A DNA stretch of 64,000 nt. Origin: Natrinema sp. HArc-T2 (GTDB lineage Archaea; Halobacteriota; Halobacteria; Halobacteriales; Natrialbaceae). Positions within the stretch are counted from its first letter, which is position 1; each line of letters begins with the position of its first letter. The stretch spans positions 788,195 to 852,194 of the forward strand of contig NZ_JBGUAZ010000001.1 in the NCBI RefSeq assembly GCF_041821085.1, in the 5' to 3' direction. Positions 3,903 to 50,681 of this stretch are shown in pieces. The notes beneath the pieces are model-generated. The model made no database searches. It was not told the DNA's origin and saw nothing but the letters and a program-made list of their open reading frames with translations. The position numbers were made by a program, and so were the translations under genes.

Positions 3903-3992
3903 TCATACGGACTGCTGTCAGTGGGCGTCGGTTGACCCACGACCGCCTCGCGGACCCACACCGTGAGAGAGTGAGAGCAGATCTACACGTGA
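3903..3992. repeat. dispersed palindrome family, copy A (degenerate)
   Basis: The left arm TCATACGGACTGCTGTCAGT at 3903-3922 matches the family consensus. The inner part (GTCGGTTGACCCACGACCG) resembles other copies. The right arm is strongly decayed (GTGAGAGCAGATCTACACG), so this copy no longer forms a full outer stem. It is not next to a recognised gene. Confidence 0.6.
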
Positions 3993-4293
3993 CGGATCCC
4001 GCTCGAGCAGGCGCAGCGTTAACATCGTTTCCAAGCGTGGGCGTCGTTTCCGTCCGGAACCTGTACAGAAAGAGTACAGTCGATCGAAGCGCATAGCGGT
4101 TTGAAAGAGCGACAACAGCTGCACTGTCCGTTTCCAACCCGAGAGTACAGCTGTCGTGGTCGGGTGTGTTCTGCCGATGTGATGCCTCTCGGTCTGTGCA
4201 CTCCCAGTATTGGGACCTGAGTACTGTCTATTCTCGACCTCATAAATTGCATGCGGCTATACGAAGTTCGGGGGTGGCGACACACAGAAACAG

Positions 4294-5877
4294 TCAGATA
4301 TCGTCTTCGTCGACCACCGACGTGTCGTCTGTCGCTTCCCTCGAGTCCCGAAACAATTGATCGGTCGGTTGCTGGCGCTTTCGTACCCGAAGCCGCTCCT
4401 GTAGCTGTTCTTCGATAGCGGTCTGTACCTCGAGTCCCCGATCGGCGTCGATGTCGTACGCCGTTGCGGCCCGACCGAAAAACGAGGCCGAACTGGCAGT
4501 GTCGGCGGTCACGCTGGCGAGATGGCGACGGCGCTGAAAGATCGTCGCCTCGTGGATGACAGCCTGCACCCGGTAGTGGGGTACGATCTTCGTCGTTCGT
4601 CGCCAGAATCCCGTCCGCGTGAGGAAGAATCGCTCGCCGACGCGAAAGCCCCGGTTCGTCCATTTGAGGTGGGCGGCGACGGGGACGACCGCGACGAGGA
4701 CGGCGGCGACGTACCAGCGGTCGAACACCGTGAAGCGCGCGACGAGGTACGCAACGGCGACGAGGGCGGCGACGACCAGCAGGTAGCGAACCATGTACCG
4801 CTCTCGAGCGCGCTTGGGCGGCGACTCGAGATCGACCGGGCCGAAGGGCTCGATCGCACGGGCGAGCGCGGCGACGCGGTCGGCATCAGCGAGGGGAATC
4901 GCGGATTCGGTCCCGCGAGAATTAGATTGGCCAGGGGCGTAGCCGGCAGTCTCGACACTCAACGCGGCGTAACCGAACCAGCGGAAGGGGATCGCTTCCG
5001 AGATCGTCAACGCCTGGACCTTTGCGAGCGGGATCGTCCCGCTGTAGCGCTGGAGGAGGCCGCGCTCGTAGTAGAGTTCGTCGCCGGTGCGAGTGAGCCG
5101 GAAGCCGTAGTAGCGGGTGAACGTGAGGAGCGCACTGATAACCCAGGCGGCGAGCAGAAAGAGCAAGAGCCCCCATGCGAGCGCGAATATCCCGGTTGCT
5201 GGTCCGGGGAGGCCGCCGACACGATCGGCGGGGACCAGCGTGGCGGGATCGAATCCGCTGGCAAACGAGAGCGCGATCCCACCCAGCACGCTCGCACCCG
5301 GATCGATGGTGAAGACGCTCAAGATCGCGAGTTCGCGGGGCTGGATCTCGAAGAGGAGTTCTTCCTCCTCGACCGCCGCTGCTGGGGATTCAGCAGTGGC
5401 TTCCTCACCCTCGAGTGATTCTTCGTCTTCGGCCTCGGTACGTGCCCCCTGTCGCAGTTGCTGTCTGAGGCGACGAGCCTCCGCTTCGGAGACGTACCGA
5501 AGGCTGACCTCGGTTTCGCCACCGCCGGCGGTTTCGATGTGGACGGCGGCGATGCCGAGGAGTCGGTCAGCTATGTTCTGTCTGATGTCGACGTTTTGGA
5601 TCCGTCCCAGCGGAAGTTCGCGAGTGCGACGTGAAAGGACGCCGGAGGTGACATCGAACGTGTCCGCGGTGAGTTCGTATCTGAATCGCTGGTAGTAGGC
5701 GAACTCGTAGACGATTCCCATGATTATCCCGAGGACGACGAGGGCGACGATCGACAGCAGGTCCATCCCGTTGCCGCCCGGCGAGACGACGACGCCGATA
5801 ATGAAGAAGACGAAGCCGGTGTTGAGGCTGCGCGAGAGCGACCGAACGGCGACCGACGCTGGATGGAGTTTCGTCAT
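4294..5877 (-). CDS. bacterial-PH-domain membrane protein, YdbT-like (first pair)
   Basis: 527 residues with three bPH2 (YdbS/YdbT, DUF304) repeats, each with a related block: [17 protein letters not shown] followed by IETAGG, then [18 protein letters not shown] with VETAGY, then [16 protein letters not shown] with DTASS. Hydrophobic segments near residues 15-55, 195-260 and 365-405 anchor it in the membrane. An acidic low-complexity linker (about 145-175) follows the first repeat. It overlaps the upstream YdbS-like gene by four bases (ATGA), so the two are co-translated. The role of this family is unknown; an envelope-associated complex is plausible. A paralogous pair lies at 10.2-12.3 kb. 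Confidence 0.85.
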
Positions 5878-6362
5878 ACCGCGTCTTCACCCTCGCTCTC
5901 GATCGCAAGTTGACGAAGCGACTCTTGCAGCGCCTCGGCACGTGCCGGCGTCAGGCCTGGAATCGCGACGTCCGAACTCCGCGAACCAGCCGTGTAGACG
6001 ACGACCGTCGCGAGACCGACCGACCGCTCGAGCGGCGAGCGCCGGGAGTCGACGTGCTGGACGCGGACGAAGGGGACGACCGTCTTGGTTCGCGTGAAGA
6101 CGCCCCTGCGGATGTACAGGTCGTCGTCGCGAAGCTCGAACCGCCAGACACCATAGCGTCGCCAGGCAATGAAGATGCGGACGACGGCGAGCGAGACAGC
6201 GATTCCCGCGGCAGTCGGGACGAGAGGGACCGGCACGGCGTCCGAGAAGGGAGTCTGTGAAAGGGCAATCGCCCCGCCGATGAGGAGCCCGCCAAGCACC
6301 ACGGCTCGAGCGAGTGCAAGCGCGAGCCAGACGACTCGGACGCGCGGCGTGAGCCGTTCCAT
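5874..6362 (-). CDS. bacterial-PH-domain membrane protein, YdbS-like (first pair)
   Basis: 162-residue protein with two membrane segments near the N-terminus (about residues 10-60) followed by one bPH2 domain containing [20 protein letters not shown] and VVYTAGSR. It ends SEGEDAV, almost the same as its paralogue at 11832-12293 (SEADDAV). The start is the ATG at [12 protein letters not shown]; upstream in-frame codons give no sensible protein. First gene of a two-gene operon with the YdbT-like protein. Molecular function not established. Confidence 0.85.
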
Positions 6363-6500
6363 ATGTGTCGTGACGGAACTGACTCGATTAAAGGGTGGGA
6401 AAGCGGCGGTCGTTCGCATCGCGTGAGAGAGTCCCCTCGAGACCGACAAGAGCGTCGTCACTCGGGCCAGCGGTGCCAAAAAATACTGCAGCGTAGCTGC

Positions 6501-6734
6501 TCAGTGGGTCGTCGCTCGAACGTCCTCGACGCGATAGAGATCTTCCTGCAGTCCGTCGCCGTCACACTCGTCGTTCGGGCACTCGTAGTGCCAGCCATCC
6601 TGGGTGGCATCCCCCTCTCGGAATCGATCCCCACATACCTGACAGAAGAGTTGTCCCTTTTTGCACGTATCGCGGTGTAACTCGAGTGCGAGCTCGGTCT
6701 GGAACGACTGGTTGCAGTTACGACAGGTGTGCAT
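6501..6734 (-). CDS. small double zinc-finger protein
   Basis: 77 residues. A C2H2-like finger opens the protein (CRNCNQSFQTELALELHRDTC). A second cysteine set follows: CQVCG at about 31-35 and CPNDEC at about 52-57. Haloarchaea encode many such small zinc-binding proteins, some regulatory, but I cannot assign a function. The start is the only ATG in frame. It is a single gene between the first PH-domain operon, on the same strand, and the divergent CNNM gene. Confidence 0.75.
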   Translation of the reverse strand: MHTCRNCNQSFQTELALELHRDTCKKGQLFCQVCGDRFREGDATQDGWHYECPNDECDGDGLQEDLYRVEDVRATTH

Positions 6735-7034
6735 ATTTCATCTGACGCGAGCATTCGTCAAAACTGCTTGGGTTCTTTTATTCCGCTAGATTCGGGTGTG
6801 ATTCGGCGTCACTGCCCCGATTTAGGACCGACGGTCAGGCAAAAAAGAACGCTCGAAATTCGTGTTTACTCGACACCGAGTGGTTCATCTACTGGTGAAT
6901 CGACCATCTCGTGTTCTATGTGTGCACGCACCATTGCTGAGTGTCGAAATAGTGGCAGGTAGGGTCACGAGACTGGGTCAAACCGGCAATAGTCTCCCCG
7001 ACTAATTTCCGTCTGGCGACACAACCGCTCGGCA
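6735..7034. other. intergenic region between divergent genes, nothing recognised
   Basis: 300 bases separating the zinc-finger gene and the CNNM gene. Promoters for both must lie here, but I see no repeat, RNA gene or conserved motif that I can support. Confidence 0.6.
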
Positions 7035-8156
7035 ATGAACTCGCTCGTCATCGGCGGTCGGCTGTTCGCAGGGGTGTTACTCATTCTGGCGAACGCCTTC
7101 TTCGTCGCGATCGAGTTCGCGTTAACCCGCGCTCGGCAGTTCACCAGAGAGGAGTTCGTCGGGGACACGCCCGCACTCGAGCGGGCATGGGCAATGACCG
7201 ACAACCTCGAGCTCTACCTCACCACGTGCCAGGTCGGCATTACGGCCTCGAGTATTGCCGTCGGGATCGTCGCGGAGCCGGCGCTGGCCGCGATATTCGA
7301 ACCGCTGTTCGTGAACACGCCGCTGGCTGCGATCGGCAGCGGAGCGATCATCGCCTTTCTCATCATCAACCTTGTTCACCTGACCCACGGCGAGCAGACA
7401 CCGACGTATCTCGGCGTCGAGCGCTCGCGGCTGGTCTGTCGGTACGGCGCGACACCGCTGTACTGGTTCCACTGGCTCATTTCGCCGATCATCACCCTCG
7501 GCGACGGCATCGCGAAGTTCACCCTCAAGCTCTTCGGGATCGAGATGACCGGCGCGTGGCTCGAGACCGAGGAGGGCGTCATCGAGTCCCGGGCAGATCT
7601 CCGGAACAAGCTCGGTTCGGTCCTCAAGGAGGGAGAGCTCCCGGAAGAACGGCGCGAAGAGGTGATGAACGCGTTTCAGATCGGCGAACAGCCGATCAGC
7701 GAACTGATGGTACCGCCCGAGGAGATCGTCGCGCTCTCGACGACGGACGATCCTGCGGAGAACTTCCGGAAGATGGAGGAGCGCCCACAGACGCGGTATC
7801 CCCTGATCGGCGACAGACTGACCGATTTCCGTGGAATCGTCTACACGCCGGTCCTCGTCAGACATCGCGAGGAACTGGCGAGCGGCGACATCGACTTCGC
7901 GGAACTGGCGGCACCGCCGATGACGCTCTCTCCCGATACGGACGTCAGCGACGCGGTCGACCAGTTCCAGGCGGAAAACCAGGAACTCGCACTGGTGATC
8001 GAAGACAGCGAGGAACGAAGTTCCTCGAGCAGTCGGACCCAGTCCGACGACGGTGCGGTCGTCGGCCTCGTCACCGTAACCGACCTGCTCGAGGCGGTGA
8101 TGGGCGACATCGAGGACCCGCTCGACCAGAGACAGGTCGAAGCGGTCGATCGGTAA
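7035..8156 (+). CDS. CNNM/HlyC-CorC family membrane protein with CBS domains
   Basis: 373 residues. The N-terminal DUF21/CNNM membrane domain (about residues 5-150) has four hydrophobic segments, the first GVLLILANAFFVAIEFALT. A paired CBS region (about 215-365) follows, with MVPPEEIVALSTTDDPAENF in the first and VVGLVTVTDLLEAVMGDIED in the second. Family members are thought to move Mg2+ or other divalent cations, or Na+, across the membrane, with CBS domains sensing nucleotides. The C-terminal CorC_HlyC domain of longer relatives is absent. Substrate is not deducible here. The gene is followed by a stress-protein gene on the same strand. Confidence 0.85.
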   Translation: MNSLVIGGRLFAGVLLILANAFFVAIEFALTRARQFTREEFVGDTPALERAWAMTDNLELYLTTCQVGITASSIAVGIVAEPALAAIFEPLFVNTPLAAIGSGAIIAFLIINLVHLTHGEQTPTYLGVERSRLVCRYGATPLYWFHWLISPIITLGDGIAKFTLKLFGIEMTGAWLETEEGVIESRADLRNKLGSVLKEGELPEERREEVMNAFQIGEQPISELMVPPEEIVALSTTDDPAENFRKMEERPQTRYPLIGDRLTDFRGIVYTPVLVRHREELASGDIDFAELAAPPMTLSPDTDVSDAVDQFQAENQELALVIEDSEERSSSSSRTQSDDGAVVGLVTVTDLLEAVMGDIEDPLDQRQVEAVDR

Positions 8157-8251
8157 TCGGATCGAAACGATGAACGGATCACGCGATGTCGAGAGCGGAC
8201 CACGCGACTGCGCACCTCCGGCTTTTCCGCGTTGCGGTGGAACGGACACCC

Positions 8252-8683
8252 ATGTATCACGACGTTCTGGTACCGACCGACGGCAGCGACTCGAGCACGG
8301 CGGCGGTCGACGAGGCCGTCGCGATCGCCGACGGGGAGGCGGCGACAGTTCACCTTCTCCACGTTATCGACGAGGGAACGGAGATGTCCGCGAGTGCGCC
8401 GGGAATGATCGCGCCGCAGGTCACGGAAACGCTCAAGGAGGAAGCGGAGTCGGCCCTCGACGATGCCGAAAGACGGGCCGAGGATGCCGGCGTGACCTAC
8501 GACCGGACGATCCGCGAGGGCGACCCCCACGAGGTGATCGCGGCCTACTGCGACGATGCGAACATCGATCTCGTCGTCATGGGTGCGAGCGGTCGTTCGG
8601 GATTAAAAGAACAGCTCCTCGGGAGCACGACCGAGCGCGTCATGCGAACGGTCGAGACGTCGGTGCTGATCGCACGACCTTAA
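8252..8683 (+). CDS. universal stress protein (UspA family)
   Basis: 143-residue single UspA domain. The N-terminal strand MYHDVLVPTDGSDSS and the ATP-binding signature VMGASGRSGLKEQLLGSTTE (G-x2-G-x9-G-S/T, about 112-131) are intact, which predicts nucleotide binding. The start is the ATG at MYHDVLVP; longer frames add an unlikely leader. It lies 95 bases after the CNNM gene, so they may share a transcript. Confidence 0.9.
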   Translation: MYHDVLVPTDGSDSSTAAVDEAVAIADGEAATVHLLHVIDEGTEMSASAPGMIAPQVTETLKEEAESALDDAERRAEDAGVTYDRTIREGDPHEVIAAYCDDANIDLVVMGASGRSGLKEQLLGSTTERVMRTVETSVLIARP

Positions 8684-8730
8684 ACGAGTGGCTCACCGGT
8701 TAGTCGAGACGAAAAATCACATTCGGTCGT

Positions 8731-8812
8731 CGTATGGGCTACTGTGAGTCAGGTCCGGTGGGCCCGCCGGACGGTCGCGGTCCCATCGGAACACGTGACA
8801 GGAGACCGTATC
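8731..8812. repeat. dispersed palindrome family, copy B
   Basis: Left arm CGTATGGGCTACTGTGAGTC and right arm GTGACAGGAGACCGTATCA are imperfect inverted copies. Between them lies an inner GC-rich part, GGTGGGCCCGCCGGACGGTC. The final TCA at 8811-8813 is the stop codon of fumC on the minus strand. Confidence 0.8.
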
Positions 8813-10226
8813 AGTCGTCCTGGCCGAGAATGCCGCGCTCGGTCATCTTGCGGGGGTCGAGAACCTCGTCGGCCTCGTCCTCGTCGAGGTAGCCTTTCTC
8901 GAGGACGACCTCACGAACCGTCTTGTCCTCCTTGAGCGCGGTCTTGGCGACTTCGCTCGCCTTGTCGTAGCCGATGTGAACGTTGAGCGAGGTAGCCATC
9001 GCCATCGACTGCTCGACGCGGTCTGCACAGTACTCCTCGTTAGCCTCGAGTTTGCGGACGAACCGGTCGCCGAACACCTGGCTCGCGTTCGAGATGAGTT
9101 CGGCCGACTCGAGGAAGTTGTGCGCCAGCACGGGCTTGTAGAGGTTGAGGTCGATCTGGCCCTCGGCAGCGCCGGCGGAGACGGCGGCGTCGTTGCCGAC
9201 GACCTGCTTGTGGACCTGGTTGACGGCCTCGGCGACGACCGGGTTGATCTTGCCGGGCATGATCGAGGAGCCGGGCTGATTCTCGGGCTGCTCGATCTCG
9301 CCGAGTCCGTTGCGCGGTCCGGAGGCGAGCAGGCGCAGGTCGTTGGCGATCTTGTTCAGCGAGCCGGCGACGGTTCGGAGCGCCCCGTGGGCCTCGCTCA
9401 TGGCGTCGTGGGCAGCCTGGGCCTCGAAGTGGTTGTCGGCCTCGCGGAACTGGACGCCGGTTTCCTTCGTGATGTACTCGGCTGCGCGACCGGGGAACTC
9501 GGGGTGAGTGTTCAGGCCAGTGCCGGTCGCCGTGCCGCCCAGCGCGAGTTCCGCAAGGTGGTCGCGGACCTGGTCGACGCGGGCCAGACCCTTCTCGACC
9601 TGCGTGCGGTAGCCGCCGAACTCCTGGCCGAGTGTGACCGGGGTCGCGTCCTGGAGGTGGGTGCGACCGGTCTTGACGACGTCGTCGAACTCGTCTTCTT
9701 TCTCCTCGAGCGCTTCACGAAGCGTATCGAGTGCCGGGATGACGTCTTTCTCGACGGCCTCGAGGGAGGCAACGTGCATCGCGGTCGGGATGACGTCGTT
9801 GCTCGACTGGCCGTAGTTGACGTGGTCGTTGGGGTGGACGACGCGGTCGCCGATCTCTGCGCCCATGATCTCGGCGGCGCGGTTGGCGATGACCTCGTTG
9901 GCGTTCATGTTCGAGGACGTGCCGGAGCCGGTCTGGAAAACGTCGACGGGGAACTGATCGTCGTGTTCGCCGGCGATGACCTCGTCTGCGGCCTCGATGA
10001 TCGCCTCGGCGACGTCCTCATCGACGAGGCTGAGGTCGCGGTTGGCCTGTGCCGCGCCTTTCTTGACGACGCCGAGTGCGCGGATGAACCGGCGGCTGAA
10101 CGAGATTCCCGAGATGGGGAAGTTCTGGATCGCGCGCTGGGTCTGTGCGCCCCAGTAAGCATCCGCGGGCACCTGCATCTCGCCGAGACTGTCCTCCTCG
10201 ATTCGGTATTCGTCTTCGTCTCCCAT
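8811..10226 (-). CDS. fumC: class II fumarate hydratase
   Basis: 471 residues, the usual length for FumC. It interconverts fumarate and malate in the citric acid cycle. The family signature is present as GSSIMPGKINP (about 322-332), with other conserved blocks: GSGTSSNMNANEV, HPNDHVNYGQSSND and GRTHLQDATPVTLGQE. The start is the ATG at MGDEDEYRIEEDSLG; a longer frame upstream has no family similarity and overlaps the end of the neighbouring PH-domain gene. Its stop codon is the last TGA of palindrome copy B. It is transcribed separately, downstream of the second PH-domain operon. Confidence 0.96.
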   Translation of the reverse strand: MGDEDEYRIEEDSLGEMQVPADAYWGAQTQRAIQNFPISGISFSRRFIRALGVVKKGAAQANRDLSLVDEDVAEAIIEAADEVIAGEHDDQFPVDVFQTGSGTSSNMNANEVIANRAAEIMGAEIGDRVVHPNDHVNYGQSSNDVIPTAMHVASLEAVEKDVIPALDTLREALEEKEDEFDDVVKTGRTHLQDATPVTLGQEFGGYRTQVEKGLARVDQVRDHLAELALGGTATGTGLNTHPEFPGRAAEYITKETGVQFREADNHFEAQAAHDAMSEAHGALRTVAGSLNKIANDLRLLASGPRNGLGEIEQPENQPGSSIMPGKINPVVAEAVNQVHKQVVGNDAAVSAGAAEGQIDLNLYKPVLAHNFLESAELISNASQVFGDRFVRKLEANEEYCADRVEQSMAMATSLNVHIGYDKASEVAKTALKEDKTVREVVLEKGYLDEDEADEVLDPRKMTERGILGQDD

Positions 10227-10246
10227 ACGCGAGAACTCACAGTCAG

Positions 10247-11842
10247 TCAGGTAAAATCCACCGAAAGCCCGGTCTCGCTCGCGCGGGCGCGCTCTCGAAT
10301 GGCCGACTGGAGTCGTTCCCGCCCGACGCCATGAAGTTCGCGGGCCGTCTCGCACTCGAGGTCCGGGATTGTCGGCGTTCCCCACGAAAAGGTTCGCGAA
10401 CTGGCGGTGTCGACGGCGAGCGACGCCAGCCCGAGCCGACGCTGGAAGATCGACCGGCGCGTCGAGACCGTCTGGATCCGATAGTAGGGAATCACGGTCG
10501 TCCGGCGGTTCCAGAACCCCGAGCGAATCACGAGCTGCTCCTCGCCGATGTAGTAGCCCAGGTTGACGTATTTGAGGTGGGCCGCAGGGGGAACGGTGGC
10601 GAAGACGACTGCAGCGAGATACCAGCGCTCGAGACTCGTGACCTGCGCGAGCCCGAAGACGACGGCGACGATCCCGACCGCGAGCAGCGTGTAGCGAGCG
10701 AGATAGCGTCCTCGCGCACGTGGCGACGGTCGCTGGAACTGTGGTGTCTCGACGCCGGTGAGGTTCTCGGCGAAGCGATAGATGCGGTCGGTCTCGGCAA
10801 GCGGGACGGCCGATTGGCTGCCGCCGCTACTCTCGGGTCCGTAGCCGGCGGTTTCGACCCAGAGGCCGGCGTAGCCGACCAGCCGCTGGAGTGGGTTCTC
10901 GGTGATGGTCACCGACTGGACCTTTTCGACAGGGATCGAGCCGCTGTAGCGCTGTATCAGGCCCCGTTCGTAGACGAAGTCGTCACCCGCTCGTCCGAGG
11001 CGGAACCCGTAGTAGTTCGCGACCGTGTAGATCGCACTCGCGACGTACGTCGCGACCGACCACTGGAGTGCAGTGACCGCGACCAAGACGAGCAGCGATC
11101 CCACGGTGGCACCGTCGAGCGACGCCGGCCCGCCGACGGGACGTGCGATCTCGAGGACGAACGCGGGGACCAGCCCCGAGCCGGAGTCGGCGCTCGTGAG
11201 GAAGATCACCAGCGCGATCGGGAAAACCGCCGCGCCCCACCGGAACGACGTCAGGGCATACACCAGCAGTTCCGTCGGCTCGAGTTCGAACAGGAGCGTC
11301 GGCCCGCGATCAGAGCGCGAGCGCTCGTGGCGTGTCGTCTCGTCGACGCCGGCGGATGTCGCGCGCTCGTCGCTGGTCGCGTCGTCCGTTCGAGCGGTTT
11401 GCCGACGGATCTCGGCGCGAAGCCGCTCGGCTTCGGCCCCGCTGACGAAGTTCAGCGTCGCTTCGGTCTCGCCGCCGCCGGCAGTCTCGAGGGAGACGAC
11501 GGCAAGCCCGAAAATGCGGTACAAGACGCCCTGGGAGACGTCGACGTTCTGGATGCGGCGATACGGAATCTCGCGTGAGCGCCGGGAGAGCACGCCCGAG
11601 GAAACGTCGAACGTCCGCGACGTGATCGCGTACGTGAACCGATAGTAGTACGCGATGCCGTAGCCGATGCCGACGACGAACCCGACCGGGGCGAGCATGA
11701 AGAGCCAGTCGATGTCGACGCCGTCGAAAACCGTCGAGAGGATCATCACGGCAAAAAACGGCATCGACAGCCCGGTGAGGCCACGCTGAAGCGCCATCAT
11801 CACCGCGCTGAGCGGATGCAAGCGGTTCGTCTCAGACGGCAT
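10247..11842 (-). CDS. bacterial-PH-domain membrane protein, YdbT-like (second pair)
   Basis: 531 residues, paralogous to the protein at 4294-5877, with the same three-repeat bPH2 plan: RIQNVDVSQGVLYRIFGLAV with [30 protein letters not shown] with ETAGYG, and RIQTVSTRRSIFQRRLG with DTASSRTF. Hydrophobic segments lie near residues 15-65, 210-280 and 370-400. A charged linker after the first repeat again varies. It overlaps the YdbS-like gene upstream by 11 bases. Function unknown. Compared with its paralogue it ends in a shorter, less charged tail. Confidence 0.85.
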   Translation of the reverse strand: MPSETNRLHPLSAVMMALQRGLTGLSMPFFAVMILSTVFDGVDIDWLFMLAPVGFVVGIGYGIAYYYRFTYAITSRTFDVSSGVLSRRSREIPYRRIQNVDVSQGVLYRIFGLAVVSLETAGGGETEATLNFVSGAEAERLRAEIRRQTARTDDATSDERATSAGVDETTRHERSRSDRGPTLLFELEPTELLVYALTSFRWGAAVFPIALVIFLTSADSGSGLVPAFVLEIARPVGGPASLDGATVGSLLVLVAVTALQWSVATYVASAIYTVANYYGFRLGRAGDDFVYERGLIQRYSGSIPVEKVQSVTITENPLQRLVGYAGLWVETAGYGPESSGGSQSAVPLAETDRIYRFAENLTGVETPQFQRPSPRARGRYLARYTLLAVGIVAVVFGLAQVTSLERWYLAAVVFATVPPAAHLKYVNLGYYIGEEQLVIRSGFWNRRTTVIPYYRIQTVSTRRSIFQRRLGLASLAVDTASSRTFSWGTPTIPDLECETARELHGVGRERLQSAIRERARASETGLSVDFT

Positions 11843-40236: not shown

Positions 40237-40299
40237 TCATACGGTCTGCTGTCACTGGGTTGCGGGTGCGTCGGCACTGACTGACAGGTGTCCGTATCA
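40237..40299. repeat. dispersed palindrome family, copy D
   Basis: Short copy (63 bases). Left arm TCATACGGTCTGCTGTCACT pairs with right arm CTGACAGGTGTCCGTATCA. The loop is only TGGGTTGCGGGTGCGTCGGC, so the inner stem of longer copies is missing. The last TCA (40297-40299) is the stop codon of the isomerase-like gene. Confidence 0.85.
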
Positions 40300-41265
40300 C
40301 TCCGCCCAGTATGCCTCACCAGGCTGGGTCTCGAAGATCGCTCGCCCGAGCAGATCAATCGCTTTCTCGAGACCCTCCCGCGAACTGGTCAGGGAGTCCT
40401 CGTGTTCGATGCTCAGCGTGCCGTCGTAGCCGATCATCCGCAGCGTGGAGACGATGTCCTTCCAGTGGGCTTCACCGTGACCGTAGCCCACCGAGCGAAA
40501 CAGCCACGACCGGTTGGGTTCGTCGTCGTACGGGGTCGTATCGAGCACACCCTTTTCGCGGGCCTGTGCGTCGTAGATCTGCGTGTCCTTGGCATGGACG
40601 TGGTGGATCGCGTCGTGCTCGCCCAGATATCGGATCGCGTCGGTGATCGTGATCCCCTGCCAGTAGAGGTGTGAGGGATCGAAGTTCGCCCCGATCCGCT
40701 CGCCGGTCGCCTCGCGCAGTCGGGCCAGCCCGTGGGGTTCGTAGACCAGCATGTTCGGGTGCATCTCGATCGCCACATCGACCTCGTGGTCGGCGGCGAA
40801 GTCGGCGAGCTCGCCCCAGTACTCGATGGCATGCTCCCACTGGTACTCGAGCGCGTCGGCGTGTTGTGGCGGCCAGGGTGCGGTGATCCAGTTGGGCGTC
40901 TCGTCGGCTGGACTGCCCGCTGGCAGCCCCGAGAAGCAGGTGACGGCGTCGACCTCGAGCTGGGCGGCCAGTCGGATCGCCTCGCGAAGTTCTGTGTCGG
41001 CGTGTGCGGCGCGCTCGTCGTCGGGATGCAAGGGGTTGTTGTGCGTCGCGAGCGCGCTGATCTGCATATCGTACTCCGCGAGCAGGTTGGCGAGTTCGGC
41101 CTGTGCACGCTCGTCGTCGAGATACGCCGATCGGGTGAGGTGGGCTTGTCCCGGGTGGCCGCCGACGCCGGGTTCGATCGCGCCGACGCCGAGGCCGTCG
41201 AGATACGGCAGGGCTTCCTCGAGCGATTCGTCGGCCAGCGGCGGAGTGTGGACGCCGATCTCCAT
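40297..41265 (-). CDS. sugar phosphate isomerase/epimerase-like TIM-barrel protein
   Basis: 322 residues of the xylose-isomerase-like AP-endonuclease-2 TIM-barrel family. It starts MEIGVHTPPLADESLEEALP and contains metal-ligand-type motifs: VAIEMHPNMLVYEPHGL, GANFDPSHLYWQGITITDAI, HHVHAKDTQIYDAQ and LSIEHEDSL. Such proteins isomerise or epimerise sugars and keto-sugars using a divalent metal. Together with the Gfo/Idh/MocA gene upstream it suggests catabolism of inositol-like or unusual sugars taken up by the nearby ABC system. A longer frame start 35 codons upstream is rejected because it runs into palindrome copy E. Confidence 0.85.
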   Translation of the reverse strand: MEIGVHTPPLADESLEEALPYLDGLGVGAIEPGVGGHPGQAHLTRSAYLDDERAQAELANLLAEYDMQISALATHNNPLHPDDERAAHADTELREAIRLAAQLEVDAVTCFSGLPAGSPADETPNWITAPWPPQHADALEYQWEHAIEYWGELADFAADHEVDVAIEMHPNMLVYEPHGLARLREATGERIGANFDPSHLYWQGITITDAIRYLGEHDAIHHVHAKDTQIYDAQAREKGVLDTTPYDDEPNRSWLFRSVGYGHGEAHWKDIVSTLRMIGYDGTLSIEHEDSLTSSREGLEKAIDLLGRAIFETQPGEAYWAE

Positions 41266-41366
41266 GGGGGCAGCGACCACACCTGGCGAGATAAAACGAC
41301 GGCTGGCAGGCACTCGGTAGCGGGCGGCGGGGGTCGACTCCGGTCGCGGTGTCGGACCTAACGGCG

Positions 41367-41447
41367 TCATACGGACGGCTGTCAGTCAGTGCCGGCGCAC
41401 CTCCGTTCTGCGGGTGCGCCGGGACCCAGTGACAGCAGCCCGTATCA
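41367..41447. repeat. dispersed palindrome family, copy E
   Basis: Left arm TCATACGGACGGCTGTCAGT and right arm CAGTGACAGCAGCCCGTATCA form a long stem, and the inner GCCGGCGCACC pairs with GGGTGCGCCGG. It is the best double-stem copy. Its last TCA (41445-41447) is the stop codon of the neighbouring small gene. Confidence 0.88.
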
Positions 41448-41690
41448 GCCGCTGATCGTCAGAATCCCGTCGTTGACGGTCACGTCGCTGGCGTTCTCGG
41501 GGACGGCAAACTCGAACTGCTCGTCGCCGACGACGACGATCGCCGTGTCGTCGACGATGTCGACCGTCGGCGTCTCGCCGGTGGGGCCGAAATCGACGGC
41601 GATGACGCTCTCGTCCTCGTATTCACGGTTGGTGATCGTGATATCTGTCGTCTCGCCGGCTGCAGCTTCCAGTTCGGGTGGTGTTTCCAT
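41445..41690 (-). CDS. small conserved haloarchaeal protein (DUF7127-like)
   Basis: 81 residues, very acidic, all-beta looking. It resembles the haloarchaeal family DUF7127 (ESVIAVDFGPTGETPTVDIV, AIVVVGDEQFEFAVP, NDGILTISG). The pattern of an alpha-crystallin-like core ending in N-DGILTI recalls small heat-shock proteins, to which it may be distantly related. No function is established. The start is the only ATG. Its stop codon is part of palindrome copy E. Confidence 0.75.
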   Translation of the reverse strand: METPPELEAAAGETTDITITNREYEDESVIAVDFGPTGETPTVDIVDDTAIVVVGDEQFEFAVPENASDVTVNDGILTISG

Positions 41691-43154: not shown

Positions 43155-44342
43155 TTAGCTATCTGCTTCCGTCGGCGTCGTGCCGGATTCTTGCTCTTCG
43201 AGGCCGCTGATGCCGTGGACCAGCGCGTCGCCGGTGGTCGCATCGAAGAGATGGATCTTCGAGCGGTCGAGCACGACGTCGACGTCCTGGTCCGCTTCGA
43301 TCTCCGTGTCGGGGGTGACGCTCATCAGCAACTGGTTCGGCGACGTGGCGGGGTCTTCCTCCATCGACCCCGCTGCGCCCTCGGCCAGCAGGAGGTAGAC
43401 GAACACCTCGTCGCCCATCGGCTCGAGCACGTCGGTCCTGGCGTCGATCCGGTCCGTCGGCGCGGCAAGCGAGTCCGCATATTGGGCCATGTGGACGTCT
43501 TCCGGTCGAACACCCATCGTGACGGCGTCACCGACCGTCACCCCTGGCAGCCGTGCGGCGTCCAGATCGACGGTGAAGTTGTCCGTCTCGAGGCCACCGT
43601 CGATGACTTCGCCGTCGGCGAAGTTCATCGAGGGTGAGCCGATGAAGCCGGCGACGAACCGGTTTGCGGGCTCGTTGTAGCAGGTCAGTGGCGGTGCGAG
43701 CTGCTGGAGTTGACCCTCGTTCAGGACGGCGATCCGGTTCGACATCGTCATCGCCTCGGCCTGATCGTGGGTGACGTAGATGATCGTCGTCCCGAGTTCG
43801 CGGTGGAGCCGCTGGAGTTCGGTCCGCATGTGGACGCGCAGCTTCGCGTCCAGGTTGGCCAGCGGTTCGTCCATCAGGAAGACGTCGGGGTTGCGCACGA
43901 TCGCGCGGGCGATCGCCACCCGCTGGCGCTGACCACCAGACAGTTCATCGGGCATCCGATCTAACATCCCCTCGAGTTGCACGATGTCGGCGGCCTGCTC
44001 GACGCGACGGTGGACCTCCTCGTCGTCGTACGTCCGGAGCCGCAGCCCGAAGGAGATGTTCTCGAAGACGTCCATATGGGGAAACAGCGCGATGTTCTGG
44101 AAGACCATCGCGACGCCTCGATCCTTGGGTGCGAGGGTCGTCACGTCGTCGTCACCGATGTACACCTGCCCTTCAGTCGGCTGTGTGAGTCCAGCGACAG
44201 TCTCCATCGTCGTCGATTTTCCACAGCCTGATGGGCCGACGAAGGTGACGAACTCGCCGTCTTCGATCTCCATACTGACGTCGTCGACCGCGGTGACGTC
44301 GTCGTAGCGTTTCGTGATGTGTTCGAGTCGTACTCGTGCCAT
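43155..44342 (-). CDS. sugar ABC transporter ATPase (MalK/UgpC type)
   Basis: 395 residues. The ATPase domain has Walker A GPSGCGKST (about 36-44), Q-loop VFQNIALFPHMDVFEN, signature [17 protein letters not shown], Walker B VFLMDEPLANLDAKL and H-loop YVTHDQAEAM. The C-terminal MalK-type regulatory OB/TOBE region (about 240-375) is present. It energises sugar import with the two upstream permeases, from which it is separated by four bases, and is the last gene of that operon. Confidence 0.93.
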   Translation of the reverse strand: MARVRLEHITKRYDDVTAVDDVSMEIEDGEFVTFVGPSGCGKSTTMETVAGLTQPTEGQVYIGDDDVTTLAPKDRGVAMVFQNIALFPHMDVFENISFGLRLRTYDDEEVHRRVEQAADIVQLEGMLDRMPDELSGGQRQRVAIARAIVRNPDVFLMDEPLANLDAKLRVHMRTELQRLHRELGTTIIYVTHDQAEAMTMSNRIAVLNEGQLQQLAPPLTCYNEPANRFVAGFIGSPSMNFADGEVIDGGLETDNFTVDLDAARLPGVTVGDAVTMGVRPEDVHMAQYADSLAAPTDRIDARTDVLEPMGDEVFVYLLLAEGAAGSMEEDPATSPNQLLMSVTPDTEIEADQDVDVVLDRSKIHLFDATTGDALVHGISGLEEQESGTTPTEADS

Positions 44343-44346
44343 TGGC

Positions 44347-45393
44347 TTACTCCTTGAGTGCGCCCGCGGTGAGTCCGCTGACGATCTTTTCCTGTGCGAT
44401 GACCACGAGAATCGCGACGGGGATCACCCCGAGGATGCTCGACGCGGCCATGAGGTTGTACAACACCTGATACTGCCCCTGATAGGCGAGGATGCCGTCG
44501 AGGATCGGGGCCCAGTTCTCGGGCTGGCCGTCGGTCATCAGGAACGAGAAGAAGAACTCGTTGTAGACGGCGATAAAGGTCAACACGCCGGCGGTCGCGA
44601 CGCCGGGTGCCGACAGCGGGATGATGACCCGGAAGAGCGCGCCCAGCCGGGTCGTCCCCTCGACGCGGGCTGCGTCCTCGAGTCCATCGGGGATTTGCGA
44701 GTAGAACGTCGTGAGAATGAAGATCGCCAGCGGCATGAAGATCGCCGACAGCGGCGTCACCAGCGCGAAGGGCGTGTTGTAGAGGGTGCCGTCGCCGGTG
44801 ATCGGCCTGAGAAACGCAAACGAGGTGTTAAAGAGATCGTTCAGCGGGATGAAGAAGGCCGCTGGCGGGAAAAACGAGATGACCAACACCAGCAGCATCA
44901 GTGGTGTTCGACCGGGGAACTCGAGGCGACCGAAGGCATACCCCGCGAGGCTGGCGATGACGAGGACGACGATCGTCGAGGCCAGCGCGATCACGAAGCT
45001 GTTGAACATGTAGATGTGGAAGGGGATGACTTCGAAGACCTCGACGAACGCGCCGGGGTTGAAGCCGTTGGGCGTAAAGACGATGTCCTGAAGCTGGCCC
45101 TCCGGCGTCAGCGCGACCATGAGCAGCCAGTAGAACGGGAATAGCGTGGTAAACAGGAAGAAGATCGCTGCGACGTAGAACATCGCCCGGTAGACCCGCT
45201 CGGGGTGTGAGATGGACTTGGAGACCCACTGCTGGAACGGGCCGCGGTCGAGTTCCGCATCGCGGTCGTCCTCGAGGACCGCCCCGCCGTCGGGACGGCG
45301 AAGCGTCGGATCATGCGGCTGGCCGCCGTTGCTGTCAGTGTCGCTCGAGTCGGTTGCGGTCGTCGGATCGGTGGAGTCTCTCGGATCAGTCAT
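44347..45393 (-). CDS. sugar ABC transporter permease (MalG type)
   Basis: 348 residues with an acidic cytoplasmic N-terminal extension (about 1-60, TDPRDSTDPTTATDSSDTDS) and six membrane helices. The EAA loop that contacts the ATPase is DGLEDAARVEGTTRLGALFR followed by VIIPLSAPG. It is the MalG-like half of the importer. The start is the ATG at MTDPRDSTDP, overlapping the stop of the MalF-like gene by one base in an ATGA-type junction. A longer frame through the upstream gene is a shadow. Confidence 0.92.
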   Translation of the reverse strand: MTDPRDSTDPTTATDSSDTDSNGGQPHDPTLRRPDGGAVLEDDRDAELDRGPFQQWVSKSISHPERVYRAMFYVAAIFFLFTTLFPFYWLLMVALTPEGQLQDIVFTPNGFNPGAFVEVFEVIPFHIYMFNSFVIALASTIVVLVIASLAGYAFGRLEFPGRTPLMLLVLVISFFPPAAFFIPLNDLFNTSFAFLRPITGDGTLYNTPFALVTPLSAIFMPLAIFILTTFYSQIPDGLEDAARVEGTTRLGALFRVIIPLSAPGVATAGVLTFIAVYNEFFFSFLMTDGQPENWAPILDGILAYQGQYQVLYNLMAASSILGVIPVAILVVIAQEKIVSGLTAGALKE

Positions 45394-46472
45394 CAGTACA
45401 TCCCTCCCTCGGTGTCGCGGAAGAGCAGCACGTACGCGCCGATAATCAGGCCGATGACCAGCGCCGTCGCAAAGGCCACGGCGGCTGCCGTCGCGTAGAT
45501 GCGCGTGCCGCCGAACATCGCTTCGACGACGAGACAGCTCAGCGACGGCACGGTCGTACAGCCGGCGGTCGATTCGATCAGGCCGTACACTCGCATCGCG
45601 TCCATGGTTCGGAACAACATCGCGACCAGCAGGGCCGGCATCACGAGCGGGAGCGTGATCAGTTTGAACCGCTGCCACGGCGAGGCCCCAGCGACGCGGG
45701 CGACGTCGTACAGGCTCCGGTCGACGCTCTGGAGCCCCGCGAGGATCAGCAGGGCCATAAACGCCGACGACTTCCAGATATCGGCCACGAGGATGATGAT
45801 GAACGCGTCCTGACTGTTGGCCAGTGGCGTCCCGCTGAAGATACCGAGACTCTGCATGAGATCGGAGCCGAACCCGACCGTCGGCTGGAACAGCAGGAAG
45901 AAGATCATCCCCTGGATGACGATCGGCACCGCCCACGGGAGGATGATCGCCACGCGCACCCAGCGCCGCCCCGTAAACTCCTGATCGAGCACGTAGGCCT
46001 GCCCGAACCCGATCACCGTCTCGACGACGACGCTGATGACCGCAAAGGCGAGCGTGACGAACAGCGCCTGCTGGAAGAACGGGGTCCCGAGTTCGATGAA
46101 GGGGAACGACGATGTCAGCCCGACGTCGAGGAACTGTCGTGCCAGCCGCGCGTTCCCAGTGAGAATGTCGACGTAGTTCTCGAGGCCGACGAAGCCGCCG
46201 AGCGGATCCAGTCCTCGCGTCTGGTTGGCGCGCAGCGACATGACGAACGTCCTGATCATGGGATAGAACGCGACCAGCGTCAGCAACGCGAAGGCCGGCA
46301 GCAACAGCAGGTACGCGTAGGCTGCTTCGCTCAGATTCTCCATCCAGTTGACGGCGGCGTTCCCGGTCCGCTCGTGTTCGTGGCTCGTCCCCGTCTCGCC
46401 GCCGGTCACCGTTCCGCCGTCAGTCACGGGCTCGGTGTCGGTCGTCGCACCGTCGTCGGTTTCAGTTGCCAT
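45393..46472 (-). CDS. sugar ABC transporter permease (MalF type)
   Basis: 359 residues with a Thr/Asp/Gly-rich N-terminal extension (about 1-42) and six to seven membrane helices. The EAA-like loop is SVDRSLYDVARVAGASPWQR followed by FKLITLPLVMP. It forms the channel with the MalG-type partner. Its start is contiguous with the stop of the binding-protein gene, so the whole cluster is one operon. Confidence 0.92.
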   Translation of the reverse strand: MATETDDGATTDTEPVTDGGTVTGGETGTSHEHERTGNAAVNWMENLSEAAYAYLLLLPAFALLTLVAFYPMIRTFVMSLRANQTRGLDPLGGFVGLENYVDILTGNARLARQFLDVGLTSSFPFIELGTPFFQQALFVTLAFAVISVVVETVIGFGQAYVLDQEFTGRRWVRVAIILPWAVPIVIQGMIFFLLFQPTVGFGSDLMQSLGIFSGTPLANSQDAFIIILVADIWKSSAFMALLILAGLQSVDRSLYDVARVAGASPWQRFKLITLPLVMPALLVAMLFRTMDAMRVYGLIESTAGCTTVPSLSCLVVEAMFGGTRIYATAAAVAFATALVIGLIIGAYVLLFRDTEGGMY

Positions 46473-47930
46473 TCATGATACCTCCGATTCGCTCTGCTCG
46501 AGTTCGTTCGCGAGGTCGTTCATCGCCGCCTCGGGCGCTTGTGCGCCGCGGTAGGCCGCGTTGACCGCCTGATAGATCAGTGCGGACTGTTCCGGCCAGA
46601 GGTCGGTCGCCGGTCGTGGGATCGCGTTCTCGCTGGCCGACGTGACTACGTCGGCGTAGCGAGCGACGGGACCGACGTCGCTTGCATCGGCTTCCGCGAC
46701 CAGATCGAGGTTCGGTGGCAGAAATCCGCCGAGCCGGAAGACGGTGAGCATGACCTCCCTGTTGGCGAAGGCCTCGAGAACCTGCAGCGCCTCCTCCTCG
46801 CGGTTCGAAAACGGGCTGACCGCGAGATTCCAGCCGCCAAGTGCCGCAGCGGTGCCGCCGACGTCCGAATATTGGGCCTCCTGTCGGGAGACCGCGTACG
46901 GCCTCGTCATCACCCCGAGGTTCTCGCCAAACCCGTCCTCCGTCCCTGTCTCCGCGATCGCGTACGACCAGTTGCGGTTCGAGACGGCCTCGCCGGCAGC
47001 GAACGGGCTGAGGGACTGCTGTTCCGTCCACTGGACGACCGCTGACGGGCAAATCTGTGGATACCCATCGAGGGTATTCTCCTCTTCTCCCGCAATGAAC
47101 GAGCGCATCATCCGGATCGAGTCGATGACCCGCTGATCGTCGACGGTGATCGGCCGGTCACCGGCGGTAAACAGGTTGTCTACCCCGCCGTAGTACGCCC
47201 CGCCCCACGACGTCATCACCTCGTTGAAGGTACAGCAGGACAGCCCCTCGTAGGCGGCCGCCTGCGTCGTGAACCCGTAGTCGAGGCCAGCCTGGTCTCT
47301 CGCGTCGCGGACCGCAGCCGAAAACTCCTCCCACCGCGGTGGATCTGTCGCCCACCCACCGGTATCGTAGCCGGCGTCCTCGATGAGGTCCTGTCGATAC
47401 AGGGTAAATCCGAGGTCCGGAAACAGCGGCAGGGCGTGGAGATCGCCACCCTGGGGGTCGCGCGCCGTCTCGAGGATCGCCTCGAGGTAGTTGTCGGTGA
47501 CGTACTGCAGCGTCTCGTCCGGGAGTTGTTCGGTCAGGTTGACCGTCTGATTCCGAAGGATGAACGGAACCGTCCAGCCGCTGTCCATCATGTGGATGTC
47601 GGGTGGGGCACGGCCCGCCTCGAGTGCCGACTGGGTGGTCTGCATCCGTGCTGCGGAGTCGCTGACGACGGTCTGGATCTCGACGCGGATATCCTCGTCG
47701 AGGCCGGCGTCCCACAGCGCCTGCTGGATCGACGGCTCGTCGCCATCGCTGTGCATGATCCCCGCGACGTCCGAGGCGGCGGTCATCACCACCGTTCCCG
47801 GCTGGCGACCACGCCCGAGACAGCCAGTAACCGCGACGGCTCCGGTCGCGGTCGCTCCTGACGCGACCTTCAGAAACGACCGTCGCTTCAGGCGCGATCG
47901 GTCGCGCCCACCGGCAGTATCGCGTCCCAT
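46473..47930 (-). CDS. Tat-exported sugar-binding lipoprotein
   Basis: 485 residues of the extracellular solute-binding family 1 (MalE-like). The N-terminus has the Tat signal RRSFLKVASGATATG and lipobox AVTGC, so it is exported folded and lipid-anchored. The binding domain covers the rest, with many aromatic residues able to stack on sugars (SGWTVPFIL, MTSWGGAYYGG). I use the ATG at MGRDTAGGRD; a GTG six codons upstream (47948) sits 26 bases from the TATA box and could be the true leaderless start. First gene of the importer operon. Confidence 0.9.
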   Translation of the reverse strand: MGRDTAGGRDRSRLKRRSFLKVASGATATGAVAVTGCLGRGRQPGTVVMTAASDVAGIMHSDGDEPSIQQALWDAGLDEDIRVEIQTVVSDSAARMQTTQSALEAGRAPPDIHMMDSGWTVPFILRNQTVNLTEQLPDETLQYVTDNYLEAILETARDPQGGDLHALPLFPDLGFTLYRQDLIEDAGYDTGGWATDPPRWEEFSAAVRDARDQAGLDYGFTTQAAAYEGLSCCTFNEVMTSWGGAYYGGVDNLFTAGDRPITVDDQRVIDSIRMMRSFIAGEEENTLDGYPQICPSAVVQWTEQQSLSPFAAGEAVSNRNWSYAIAETGTEDGFGENLGVMTRPYAVSRQEAQYSDVGGTAAALGGWNLAVSPFSNREEEALQVLEAFANREVMLTVFRLGGFLPPNLDLVAEADASDVGPVARYADVVTSASENAIPRPATDLWPEQSALIYQAVNAAYRGAQAPEAAMNDLANELEQSESEVS

Positions 47931-48214
47931 GACCAGTGGTCCGTCCACGGCATCGAACTTAGTTGTTGGTTATAAATACTGTAATAAAATATGACTGTCG
48001 AGGTGTCGTGTCGGTTCCGACGAGCCGGGCAACATATCGACAGTGCCGGAGGCGTACGTTCCTGCTCGACAGCGATATTGAACGTTCTAATCGCTCATTG
48101 TCACTCGGCGGTCGGCAGATGCCAGCAGACGACGGATATGTCACCGGAGAAAGGGAGTACGGGCTTCTTCTCCGACACCGGTGACGATCGAGCGCTCCCA
48201 CGACTGGGTCCGTC
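47931..48214. promoter_or_regulatory. promoter region of the sugar ABC operon
   Basis: An AT-rich stretch at 47966-47995 (minus strand CATATTTTATTACAGTATTT, then ATAACC) holds the TATA box TTTATA, about 26 bases before the GTG at 47948. The remaining sequence up to palindrome copy G has no gene. A TrmB site of the TACT-N7/8-GAGTA type is not evident here. Confidence 0.5.
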
Positions 48215-48350
48215 TGATCGAGGGTGTACTATCACTGGATACCGGCGCACCAGCACGACGGATTGCGGGTGCACCAGCACGACGGATTGCGGGTGCACCA
48301 GCACGACGGATTGCGGGTGCACCAGCACTGACTGACAGGAGTCCGTATCA
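48215..48350. repeat. dispersed palindrome family, copy G with internal tandem expansion
   Basis: The right arm CTGACTGACAGGAGTCCGTATCA matches the family (TGATACGGACTCCTGTCAGT in reverse). The left arm is decayed (TGATCGAGGGTGTACTATCA then CTGGATACCGG). The loop has been enlarged by tandem duplication (48247-48328). The final TCA (48348-48350) is the stop codon of the TrmB gene. Confidence 0.75.
48247..48328 (+). repeat. 24-base tandem repeat, 3.4 copies
   Basis: Unit of 24 bases beginning GCACCAGCACGACGGATTGC at 48247, 48271 and 48295, with a partial fourth copy to 48328. The three full copies are identical. It lies inside palindrome copy G and is not a CRISPR array, as there are no spacers. 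Confidence 0.92.
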
Positions 48351-49415
48351 GGCGTCCTCGAGCGCTGGCGGCTCGTTCCGACCGATGTGGATCTCGTGGG
48401 CCTCGACGTCCTCGAGGGCAGCGACGCGGCCGCCGACGGAGACTTCCTCGCCGTCTTCGGTTTCGATCGTGAGGCTGGCGACTTCCTCGCTGACCTCGAA
48501 GCCGATATCGCGGACCTGTCCGCGGACGATCCGCTGGCCGCCGACTTCGACGTCCCGGCCGTCGATGGTCGCGTAGAACTCGCCACCCTCGTCGAGCAGA
48601 TCCTTCACGCACCGGCGGATCGATGCGTATTTGCGCGGGTAGGAGCGGGCGGTGTCGTCCTCACCGAGCGTTCGATCGGCGGTCGTCCAGAGGACGGTTC
48701 CGAAGAAACTCGAGACGAGGAAGCCAAGCGCAGACCGGTTGAAGATGACGCCGTAGCGGTCCTGATCGTCTCGCAGGGCGTCCTGTGTCGCGTAGACCGA
48801 GTAGTTGCCGTCGGCGACGGCGACGACCGGCGTCGTGATCCCGCGCCGGGCGCGTGCGGTCGAGGCGATCGCGCCGTAGTCGAACGCGTCCGGGTCGGGG
48901 GCCTCACTGGCCGGCGTCACGATCAGGTCGACGCTCACGCCCGCCTCGATCGCATCGCGCAGGTCCGCCTCGAATCTGGTCAGCAGATCCGGCGTCAGCG
49001 AGAGTGCGAGCTCGAACTCCGCGTCGTCGATGACCTCCTCGAGATAGCGCAGGATCGTCGACCGCGATTTGACCAGCGAGACGGCCTCCGTGTCTCTGGC
49101 CGGTGCGGTGTAGCGGGCCTCGAGGTCGGTGATCATCTGCTCGAAGGAGGTCTGGACGTCATCGAAGGCCTCCGCAGGGTCGATCGCGACGACCTTCATG
49201 GGGCGGGACTCGCGCAGTTCGACCAGGCCGCGGTCGCTCAGGCTGCGGACGGTGTCGTACACCCGGGGCTGGGGAATCTCCGTTCGGTCGGCGATCTCGC
49301 TCGCGGTGAGCTGGCCCTGCTCTAGGACGGTGAGATAGGCGTCGATCTCGTACTCGCCGAGATTAAACCGGTCGCCAACGCGTTCGACCGTCGAGCGAAG
49401 TTCGTCTGGTGCCAT
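48348..49415 (-). CDS. TrmB-family sugar-responsive transcriptional regulator
   Basis: 355 residues. N-terminal winged helix (about 15-85): [20 protein letters not shown] then [13 protein letters not shown] short coiled-coil linker and the C-terminal TrmB sugar-binding domain (about 105-350) follow, ending [20 protein letters not shown]. TrmB proteins sense sugars and repress or activate transport and metabolic genes. It is next to and in line with the sugar ABC operon, its likely target. A possible half-matching site TATT-N7-GAGTA lies at 49449-49464 upstream of its own start. Its stop is part of palindrome copy G. Confidence 0.92.
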
Positions 49416-49553
49416 GCCAGTCTCTACGACATCAATGACTAAATGATTTATTATACATCGAGTAGCACGCGTTTTCGAAATCGGGTTGTTTCAGATCGGT
49501 CGCTCGATGTGATGGTCAGAACGCTTAACCACAGCGGGCCTGAGTGTGTTGGC

Positions 49554-50558
49554 ATGCGCGGGGTCCTTCAGGCCAACGAGAGCGCCGCCGAGAACTCGGT
49601 AGCCAGGGGTATTCAGGACCTACTCCCGAGAGCGGTCCCGCTGGACGTGATCGAGGTCGCCCTCGCACTCATCGTACTCGTCGTCGGCTGGTACCTGTCG
49701 AAACTCGTCGTCCGCCTTGCCGGTCGAACGATCGCTCAGCGGATCGAACGACCGAGCGTCACGCGAACGGTGCTTCGTGGCGTCAGAGCGGCCGTACTCC
49801 TCTGGGCCGTGACCGTCGCTGCAAGCATCATCGGCGTCGGCAACACGCAGATCCTCCTGTCGGTGACCGTCATCTCGGCCGTGATCGCCATCGTCCTCGC
49901 TCCGATCGTCGGCAGCATGATCAACGGCTTCTACGTGCTAGCCGACCGCCCTTACGAGATCGGCGACATGATCGAGGTCGTCGACGCCGGCCACCGCGGC
50001 TTCGTCGAGGACATCACGATCCGGTACACGAAGATATTCACCCTCCAGAACACCTTCATCGTCATTCCGAACTCCGAGATCCACACGCGCGACGTCATCA
50101 ACTACTCCGCGGAAGACGAGCGCACTCGGGTCTCGCTCACGCTCGAGATTACCTACGACAGCGACCTCGAGACGGCGCGCCAGGCTGCCGAACGGGCCGC
50201 CCGGTCCGTCGACGACGTCATCTCTGGAGGGCCCGATATTCGGATCGGCAGCGCTCGGTACGCCGCCGCACCCAACTGTACGATCAGTGCATACGGTGAT
50301 CACGGGATCGTCCTCGAGTTGTTCTTCTGGATGAAACACCCCTACAAACAGGCCATCGTCCGGTCGGCGGTCCAGACGGCGATCGGCGACCGATTCGCGG
50401 AGCTCGACGTCGAGTTCGCCTACCCACGTCGCCACCACGTCTTCGACGAGACCAGCGGCGTCGCCAGGCTGGCCGTCGACGAGTCGGGCTTCGAGCGACC
50501 GACGACCGACTCGCCCGTCGAGCCGAGCGAAAGCCCTGCGGATCCAGCGGATCGGTGA
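49554..50558 (+). CDS. MscS-family mechanosensitive ion channel
   Basis: 334 residues. Three membrane helices in about residues 25-125, then the MscS beta domain with APIVGSMINGFYVLADRPYE, IGDMIEV, GHRGFVEDITIRYTKI and NTFIVIPNSEIHTRDVINYS, and a C-terminal alpha/beta domain. It opens under membrane tension to release solutes on osmotic downshock. The ATG at MRGVLQANES is chosen: a TATA-like GCTTAACC lies about 27 bases before it. An upstream frame extension of 37 residues is unlike the family. Confidence 0.92.
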   Translation: MRGVLQANESAAENSVARGIQDLLPRAVPLDVIEVALALIVLVVGWYLSKLVVRLAGRTIAQRIERPSVTRTVLRGVRAAVLLWAVTVAASIIGVGNTQILLSVTVISAVIAIVLAPIVGSMINGFYVLADRPYEIGDMIEVVDAGHRGFVEDITIRYTKIFTLQNTFIVIPNSEIHTRDVINYSAEDERTRVSLTLEITYDSDLETARQAAERAARSVDDVISGGPDIRIGSARYAAAPNCTISAYGDHGIVLELFFWMKHPYKQAIVRSAVQTAIGDRFAELDVEFAYPRRHHVFDETSGVARLAVDESGFERPTTDSPVEPSESPADPADR

Positions 50559-50597
50559 CGGACTCGGCGCTGGTGAGATGGTCCGCCTGCGTCCGGC

Positions 50598-50681
50598 TGA
50601 TACGGTCTACTGTCAGTCAGTACCGGTGCAACCGCGACCGCCCTGCGGTTGCACGGTATATCGGTACAACAAACCGTATGA
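50598..50681. repeat. dispersed palindrome family, copy H
   Basis: Left arm TGATACGGTCTACTGTCAGT and right arm CGGTACAACAAACCGTATGA, with a strong inner stem ACCGGTGCAACCGC against GCGGTTGCACGGT. It lies between the MscS and UspA genes, both on the plus strand, 40 bases after the MscS stop. Confidence 0.85.

Follow-up and report, generated by a model that had tools for sequence, protein, structure and literature searches.

A dispersed palindromic repeat of Natrialbaceae is very probably a miniature transposable element that often duplicates a stop codon

Introduction

What is a palindrome with two stems doing between so many genes of one haloarchaeon? Eight copies lie in a 64,000-nucleotide stretch of Natrinema sp. 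HArc-T2, referred to here as the window. An earlier note, made from the letters alone, proposed that they are either REP/MITE-like elements or a lineage-specific terminator or RNA-processing signal, and that their fold is under selection. A literature search of open-licence papers turned up no account of such a repeat. PMC10969869 reviews the MITEs of prokaryotes and names RUP, BOX and SPRITE among other elements, and the sections of PMC3119063 that concern us define MITEs, PATEs and SMRs for the haloarchaeon Haloquadratum walsbyi. Here we analyze the copies in the window and their relatives in other genomes, and ask which of these explanations they fit.

Results and Discussion

Arm matching and a covariance model, built from 29 copies and used to list copies genome-wide, agreed that all eight places reported earlier carry the repeat as members of a large dispersed family. 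Their intergenic position was likewise borne out; all eight lie between genes, and 0 of the 140 copies analyzed genome-wide fall within a called gene. For the copies starting at 8730, 35715, 40237, 41367, 42987 and 50598, the limits given below are those revised by the model.

3903..3992, minus strand: decayed copy, left arm intact and right arm degraded (arm with 2 mismatches; model match 3903-3987, 20.2 bits, E 0.064)
8730..8813, minus strand: copy with TCG/TCA ends (56.6 bits); a minus-strand gene of the lyase/fumarase family (Pfam), ending at 8811, has the right-end TCA (8811-8813) as its stop codon
35715..35799, minus strand: copy with TGA at both ends, flanked by two plus-strand genes (68.1 bits)
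40237..40299, plus strand: 63-bp copy with TCA at both ends, the inner stem largely missing (49.2 bits); the minus-strand gene 40297-41370 has the right TCA (40297-40299) as its stop codon
41367..41447, minus strand: copy with TCA at both ends (80.2 bits); the called minus-strand gene 41445-41690 has the right TCA (41445-41447) as its stop codon
42987..43071, plus strand: copy with TCG at both ends, flanked by two minus-strand genes (75.3 bits)
48215..48350, plus strand: copy grown to 136 bp through tandem units of the inner part, left arm damaged (partial model matches 48282-48333 and 48241-48326); the minus-strand TrmB-like gene (Pfam) 48348-49415 has the right TCA (48348-48350) as its stop codon
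50598..50681, minus strand: copy with TGA at both ends (77.6 bits); missing from the related loci L061-L063

The arm TGATACGGWCTGCTGTCAGT, allowing up to 3 mismatches, gave 103 and 102 matches in the host genome (205 in total) against 0 and 0 for the reversed control. With the covariance model, at least 149 distinct copies were listed in 3.73 Mb; 140 of these were analyzed and 9 left out, and the window copies at 3903, 40237 and 48215 stand outside the list. The closest named relatives of the window locus are Natrinema species and Haloterrigena sp. H1. Within the genus, matches were found in 22 of the 25 genomes searched, ranging from none (G002, G005 and G009) to at least 109 per genome, all such per-genome counts being lower bounds. 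Family-wide, matches at E 1e-4 occurred in 96 of 125 genomes, representing 24 of 29 genera. Outside the family, 2 of 16 genomes had matches. The element is also present in eleven haloarchaeal plasmid records. The phage records searched held no match to it, and viral contigs yielded 15 arm matches of which the model recognized 0 as elements. Neither outcome that the earlier note named as refuting was seen: the model found many further copies in the genome and in relatives, and no named family was matched, Rfam returning 0 matches in the window. Genome annotators could mask the element directly.

A length of 85 or 86 bp is found in 110 of 140 copies, about 86 bp being the size with both target triplets included. 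The core of about 80 bp has inverted arms, KACGG...CCGTM, and is flanked by a 3-bp direct duplication. Read in one orientation, the consensus runs TSA, KACGGTCTGCTGTCA, an inner stem of about 12 pairs, a loop like AGGACGGTC, TGACAGGAGTCCGTM and TSA. Some copies have the loop in reverse-complement form, so the inner part can take either orientation with respect to the arms; such an inverted loop is seen in copy 8730-8813 of the window and in those at L019 1435-1520 and L021 1436-1520. The outer arms form an imperfect palindrome in which core positions 6 and 9 are mostly T.T and G.G (131 host copies). Watson-Crick pairs form at these two positions in 15% and 11% of the 131 host copies. The figures rise to 34% and 26% in two sister genomes (38 copies) and to 39% and 55% in other genera (51 copies). 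A kink-turn or box C/D identity of the internal loop was considered and dropped upon inspection of the copies.

We then turn to the ends. The terminal 3-mers are identical in 104 of 140 copies (TGA/TGA in 59, TCA/TCA in 42 and others in 3), TGA is paired with TCA in 7, and 29 remain. As a palindrome would require TGA at one end and TCA at the other, the rarity of that combination indicates that the ends are direct repeats. The middle base of the end triplets is identical in 90% of copies versus 49% expected, and offsets just outside show no excess. The target reads C-TSA-G, a CTSAG-like site at which the flanking preference is weaker. Identical ends recurred in 35 of 41 copies from G024 and G019 and in 45 of 51 from nine genomes of six other genera. 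Among the seven copies of G114 (loci L324-L329), two have CTA/TAG ends, which are palindromic instead of duplicated; these possibly reflect shifted boundaries or another subfamily.

Related loci without the element show a single triplet. Copy 35715 reads GATAC-TGA-[element]-TGA-GACCG, versus GATAC-TGA-GACCG at the empty site of Haloterrigena sp. H1 (L065). Copy 40237 is missing from L061 to L067, and a single TCA is retained in L064, L065 and L067. We made 17 syntenic comparisons with G024 and G019, 13 starting from host copies and 4 from relatives' copies, with one site appearing in both sets. At least 6 of these 17 comparisons show an empty allele with one TGA or TCA where the filled allele has, or had, two (single-triplet empty sites at C6:143146, C2:470785, C1:115006, C6:20282, C4:251389 and L297:9627). 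Two sites were filled in both genomes with different inner stems (C2:384780 with L310, and C2:91825 with L300), and the others were diverged or had a different empty triplet. At the second of these filled sites (G000:C2:91825-91910 and L300 11930-12015), the same position in two species holds inner stems that differ yet are each self-complementary; either the inner hairpin was replaced or the insertion was independent. Near-identical copies occur at different loci.

The repeat is short and non-coding, with terminal inverted repeats, a fixed 3-bp duplication and clean empty sites, as a MITE is. From these sequence features, the family very probably consists of miniature transposable elements by origin, likely moved in trans by a DDE-type transposase.

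The REP/MITE-like label of the earlier note joined two kinds of element, and the data separate them. Three observations favor a palindrome of the REP/REPIN kind, which a Y1 (RAYT-type) transposase would move as single-stranded DNA: there are more than 100 extragenic palindromic copies, the outer stem is imperfect with recurring mismatches, and one copy lies about 165 bp from a Y1 (IS200-type) gene (L381, G000:C6 about 160828-161415). However, REP/REPIN elements are not known to make a target duplication, while the present one has a 3-bp duplication and empty sites. Nor does copy number track Y1 genes: G003, G007 and G020 have at least 100 matches without a Y1 match, G009 has two Y1 matches and zero copies, and at 30 examined Y1 loci a copy lay within about 1.5 kb at two and on both sides at none. 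We consider a Y1-moved palindrome extremely unlikely. The MITE-like half of the label holds, on the grounds of the duplication, the inverted arms, the empty sites and the patchy copy number.

If the family consists of miniature elements, what moves them? The IS5 superfamily (IS1031 group) and PIF-Harbinger transposons produce a 3-bp TNA duplication at a palindromic target of the CTNAG type. We take a 3-bp duplication at CTNAG-like palindromes to point to a DDE transposase of the IS5/PIF type, and the analogy suggests such an enzyme as the mobilizer. The predicted transposase would cut CTSAG-like palindromes with a 3-base stagger and would move in trans the elements, most of which sit between duplicated TGA or TCA triplets. 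Duplication and target are alike, but no such transposase with the ends of the element was found at the 36 DDE_Tnp_1 loci inspected among at least 470 matches in the genus, and PF13359 had matches in 0 of 29 genus genomes. Lone arms in the host stretches examined had no autonomous partner behind them, and none was found in ten low-copy genomes (loci L209, L218 and L221 inspected). In an arm search of G015, the control was as frequent as the matches. G096 has 28 near-perfect arms, none with an autonomous partner behind it; 16 form eight pairs at the spacing of the element, 10 belong to full elements by eye, one is a truncated copy (L368) and one is probably due to chance (L358).

Among bacterial MITEs, RUP, Correia and similar elements are hairpins of about 100 bp that occur between genes in many copies and duplicate a short target, which in their case is TA. 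They resemble the present element in hairpin size, intergenic copies and short duplication but differ in lineage and target, and we know of no stop-codon rule for them. Closer at hand are the H. walsbyi elements. According to the relevant sections of PMC3119063, MITEs of that species are likewise short and transposase-free, with inverted ends, target duplication and many copies, and some genomes have no functional partner transposase for them, as may be compared with the present element. They share ends with known transposons, whereas no parent was found here. The 86-bp two-stem form, the TSA duplication and the landing on stop codons set our element apart from the MITE descriptions in those sections (PMC3119063). 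The SMRs described there are likewise about 80 to 110 bp long, with inverted ends unlike those of known transposons and up to 54 copies per genome; in contrast to the present element, with its 3-bp duplication and location at gene ends, they make no target duplication and insert into other mobile elements (PMC3119063). The 3-bp duplication rules out membership in the SMRs, as the same sections define them (PMC3119063). PATEs, characterized there by near-terminal palindromes without inverted ends or duplication, were also rejected as a home for the family, which does not have that combination (PMC3119063).

The other explanation in the earlier note was a host signal at gene 3' ends, either a transcription terminator or an RNA-processing hairpin, kept by selection. 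Copies are indeed concentrated straight after stop codons, with 53 of 139 placed copies in convergent gaps, and they form strong hairpins; the inner stem covaries above shuffles in four of five measures, and C2:91825 and L300 are both largely paired despite their differing inner sequence. However, 18 of the 139 copies lie in divergent gaps, sites are empty in close relatives, three of 25 genus genomes have no match, and pairs have been lost from other shared copies (L065 at 41367; L310). Archaeal terminators are marked by a T-rich tract. TTTT or AAAA occurs in 0 of 140 copies, and T-runs after a copy are no commoner than after other stops (7/76 versus 57/418), which makes a standard archaeal terminator unlikely and leaves that suggestion of the earlier note unsupported. 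Overall, we regard a host signal as the origin of the family as highly improbable, and a host role may have been acquired later at some sites.

How, then, does a miniature element come to have complementary changes in its arms? The earlier note had read these as selection for the folded form. The complementary variation is real, but it lies mainly in the inner stem, the outer arms not being a perfect palindrome. Across 29 copies, two-sided changes affect 14 of 32 pairs (9/15 inner and 5/17 outer), above all 500 shuffles, and inner-stem covariation exceeds the shuffles in the four measures already mentioned; the fifth measure, further pair types, does not exceed them (101/500), and kinship alone can beat these shuffles. 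In 140 copies, the inner-stem types are largely TGCAACC, TGGGACC, CGCACCC and TGCACCC, plus mixed forms, and two inner pairs are formed in just 65-69% of copies.

We compared pairing over 220 copies, after 12 of 232 were left out for atypical length. The mean number of inner pairs, out of 12, was 10.7 in copies with identical end triplets (n = 176) versus 9.9 in the rest (n = 44). Nine clusters of near-identical copies (45 of the 220) averaged 11.8 inner pairs versus 10.2 for the other 175, and for 8 of the 9 the representative had a fully paired inner stem (12/12 Watson-Crick), these eight stems comprising five different sequences. The choice of copies from other genomes centered on top model scores, which favor pairing, so perfect stems are biased among them; three of the clusters include host copies, which are less affected by this bias. 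Pairs have been lost in the shared copies at L310 and L065, the latter holding the copy at 41367-41447 in partly decayed form (56.9 bits). We read this as burst founders having near-perfect stems and resident copies losing pairs. We infer that a well-paired inner stem is needed for the element to multiply. As stems are near-perfect in recently multiplied copies and have lost pairs in old ones, it is likely mobility, not the host, for which the fold is important. Template switching can correct imperfect palindromes. Selection for mobility and correction by template switching could each give this pairing pattern, and the data do not separate them. The claim of selection for the fold is accordingly restated: the variation comprises largely a few inner-stem types, many resident copies have lost pairs and recently multiplied copies are nearly perfectly paired. 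A mobile element can thus come to show stem covariation with no RNA function in the host, which calls for caution in structure-based RNA discovery.

We used gene ends from a simple gene caller trained on host DNA to place the copies relative to stop codons. The median distance to a gene end was 6 bp (175 ends). In 76 of 140 copies (78 if matched by position alone), a neighboring gene has the triplet as its TGA stop codon. Clean copies lay at a stop in 31 of 41 cases in convergent gaps, versus 47 of 222 background TSA sites, and in 30 of 47 cases in tandem gaps, versus 87 of 917; in divergent gaps the figures were 0 of 13 and 0 of 702. The background comprises TSA sites in element-free gaps of the host genome alone. 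Weighting by the target motif of the non-stop copies gave expectations of 0.356 for convergent gaps (p 2e-7) and 0.187 for tandem gaps (p 1.4e-11). The orientation of the element relative to the gene showed no clear bias (37 to 24, p 0.12). In a clean duplication, the sequence through the stop is original, which means that the stop is native; judged from the sequence, the gene is left intact where the duplicated triplet is its stop codon. Elsewhere, 25 of 41 copies in G024 and G019 and 25 of 51 in the nine genomes of six other genera were at a stop, the background having been computed for the host only, and 0 of 92 copies from other genomes lay inside genes. Landing on stops was weak in G134 (3/12; clean copies 1/8), G114 (1/7; clean copies 1/5) and G079 (2/7, the same for clean copies).

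Taking the family as mobile, the excess at stops could come from selection only, CTSAG-like insertions surviving where they are harmless. Consistent with this, no called gene start lies less than 22 bp from a copy (104 starts), no copy among the 140 is inside a called gene, and the CTSA preference is common to the non-stop copies. Against it, restricting the comparison to convergent gaps, which put no promoter at risk, leaves the excess in place, as does weighting by target motif. We put selection only at somewhat short of an even chance, and infer that the excess reflects target choice plus selection against harmful sites. More tentatively, and with the balance of probability against it, the element may home on stop codons and double the TGA, a perfectly paired inner hairpin may be its license to transpose, and the compensatory changes may be selected at the level of the element, not the host. 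The family adds to Natrialbaceae an abundant, family-wide mobile element that is often harmless by a simple rule, copying the stop codon. It also provides a test case in nature for telling target choice from selection as the source of a bias toward stop codons.

One stop codon of the window is also occupied in relatives. At the site of copy 48215-48350, the N. hispanicum and N. limicola loci (L061, L062 and L063, near 3000-3200) hold an element in the opposite orientation, and in L062 a second element is joined to the first. This may reflect one target used repeatedly, or flipping.
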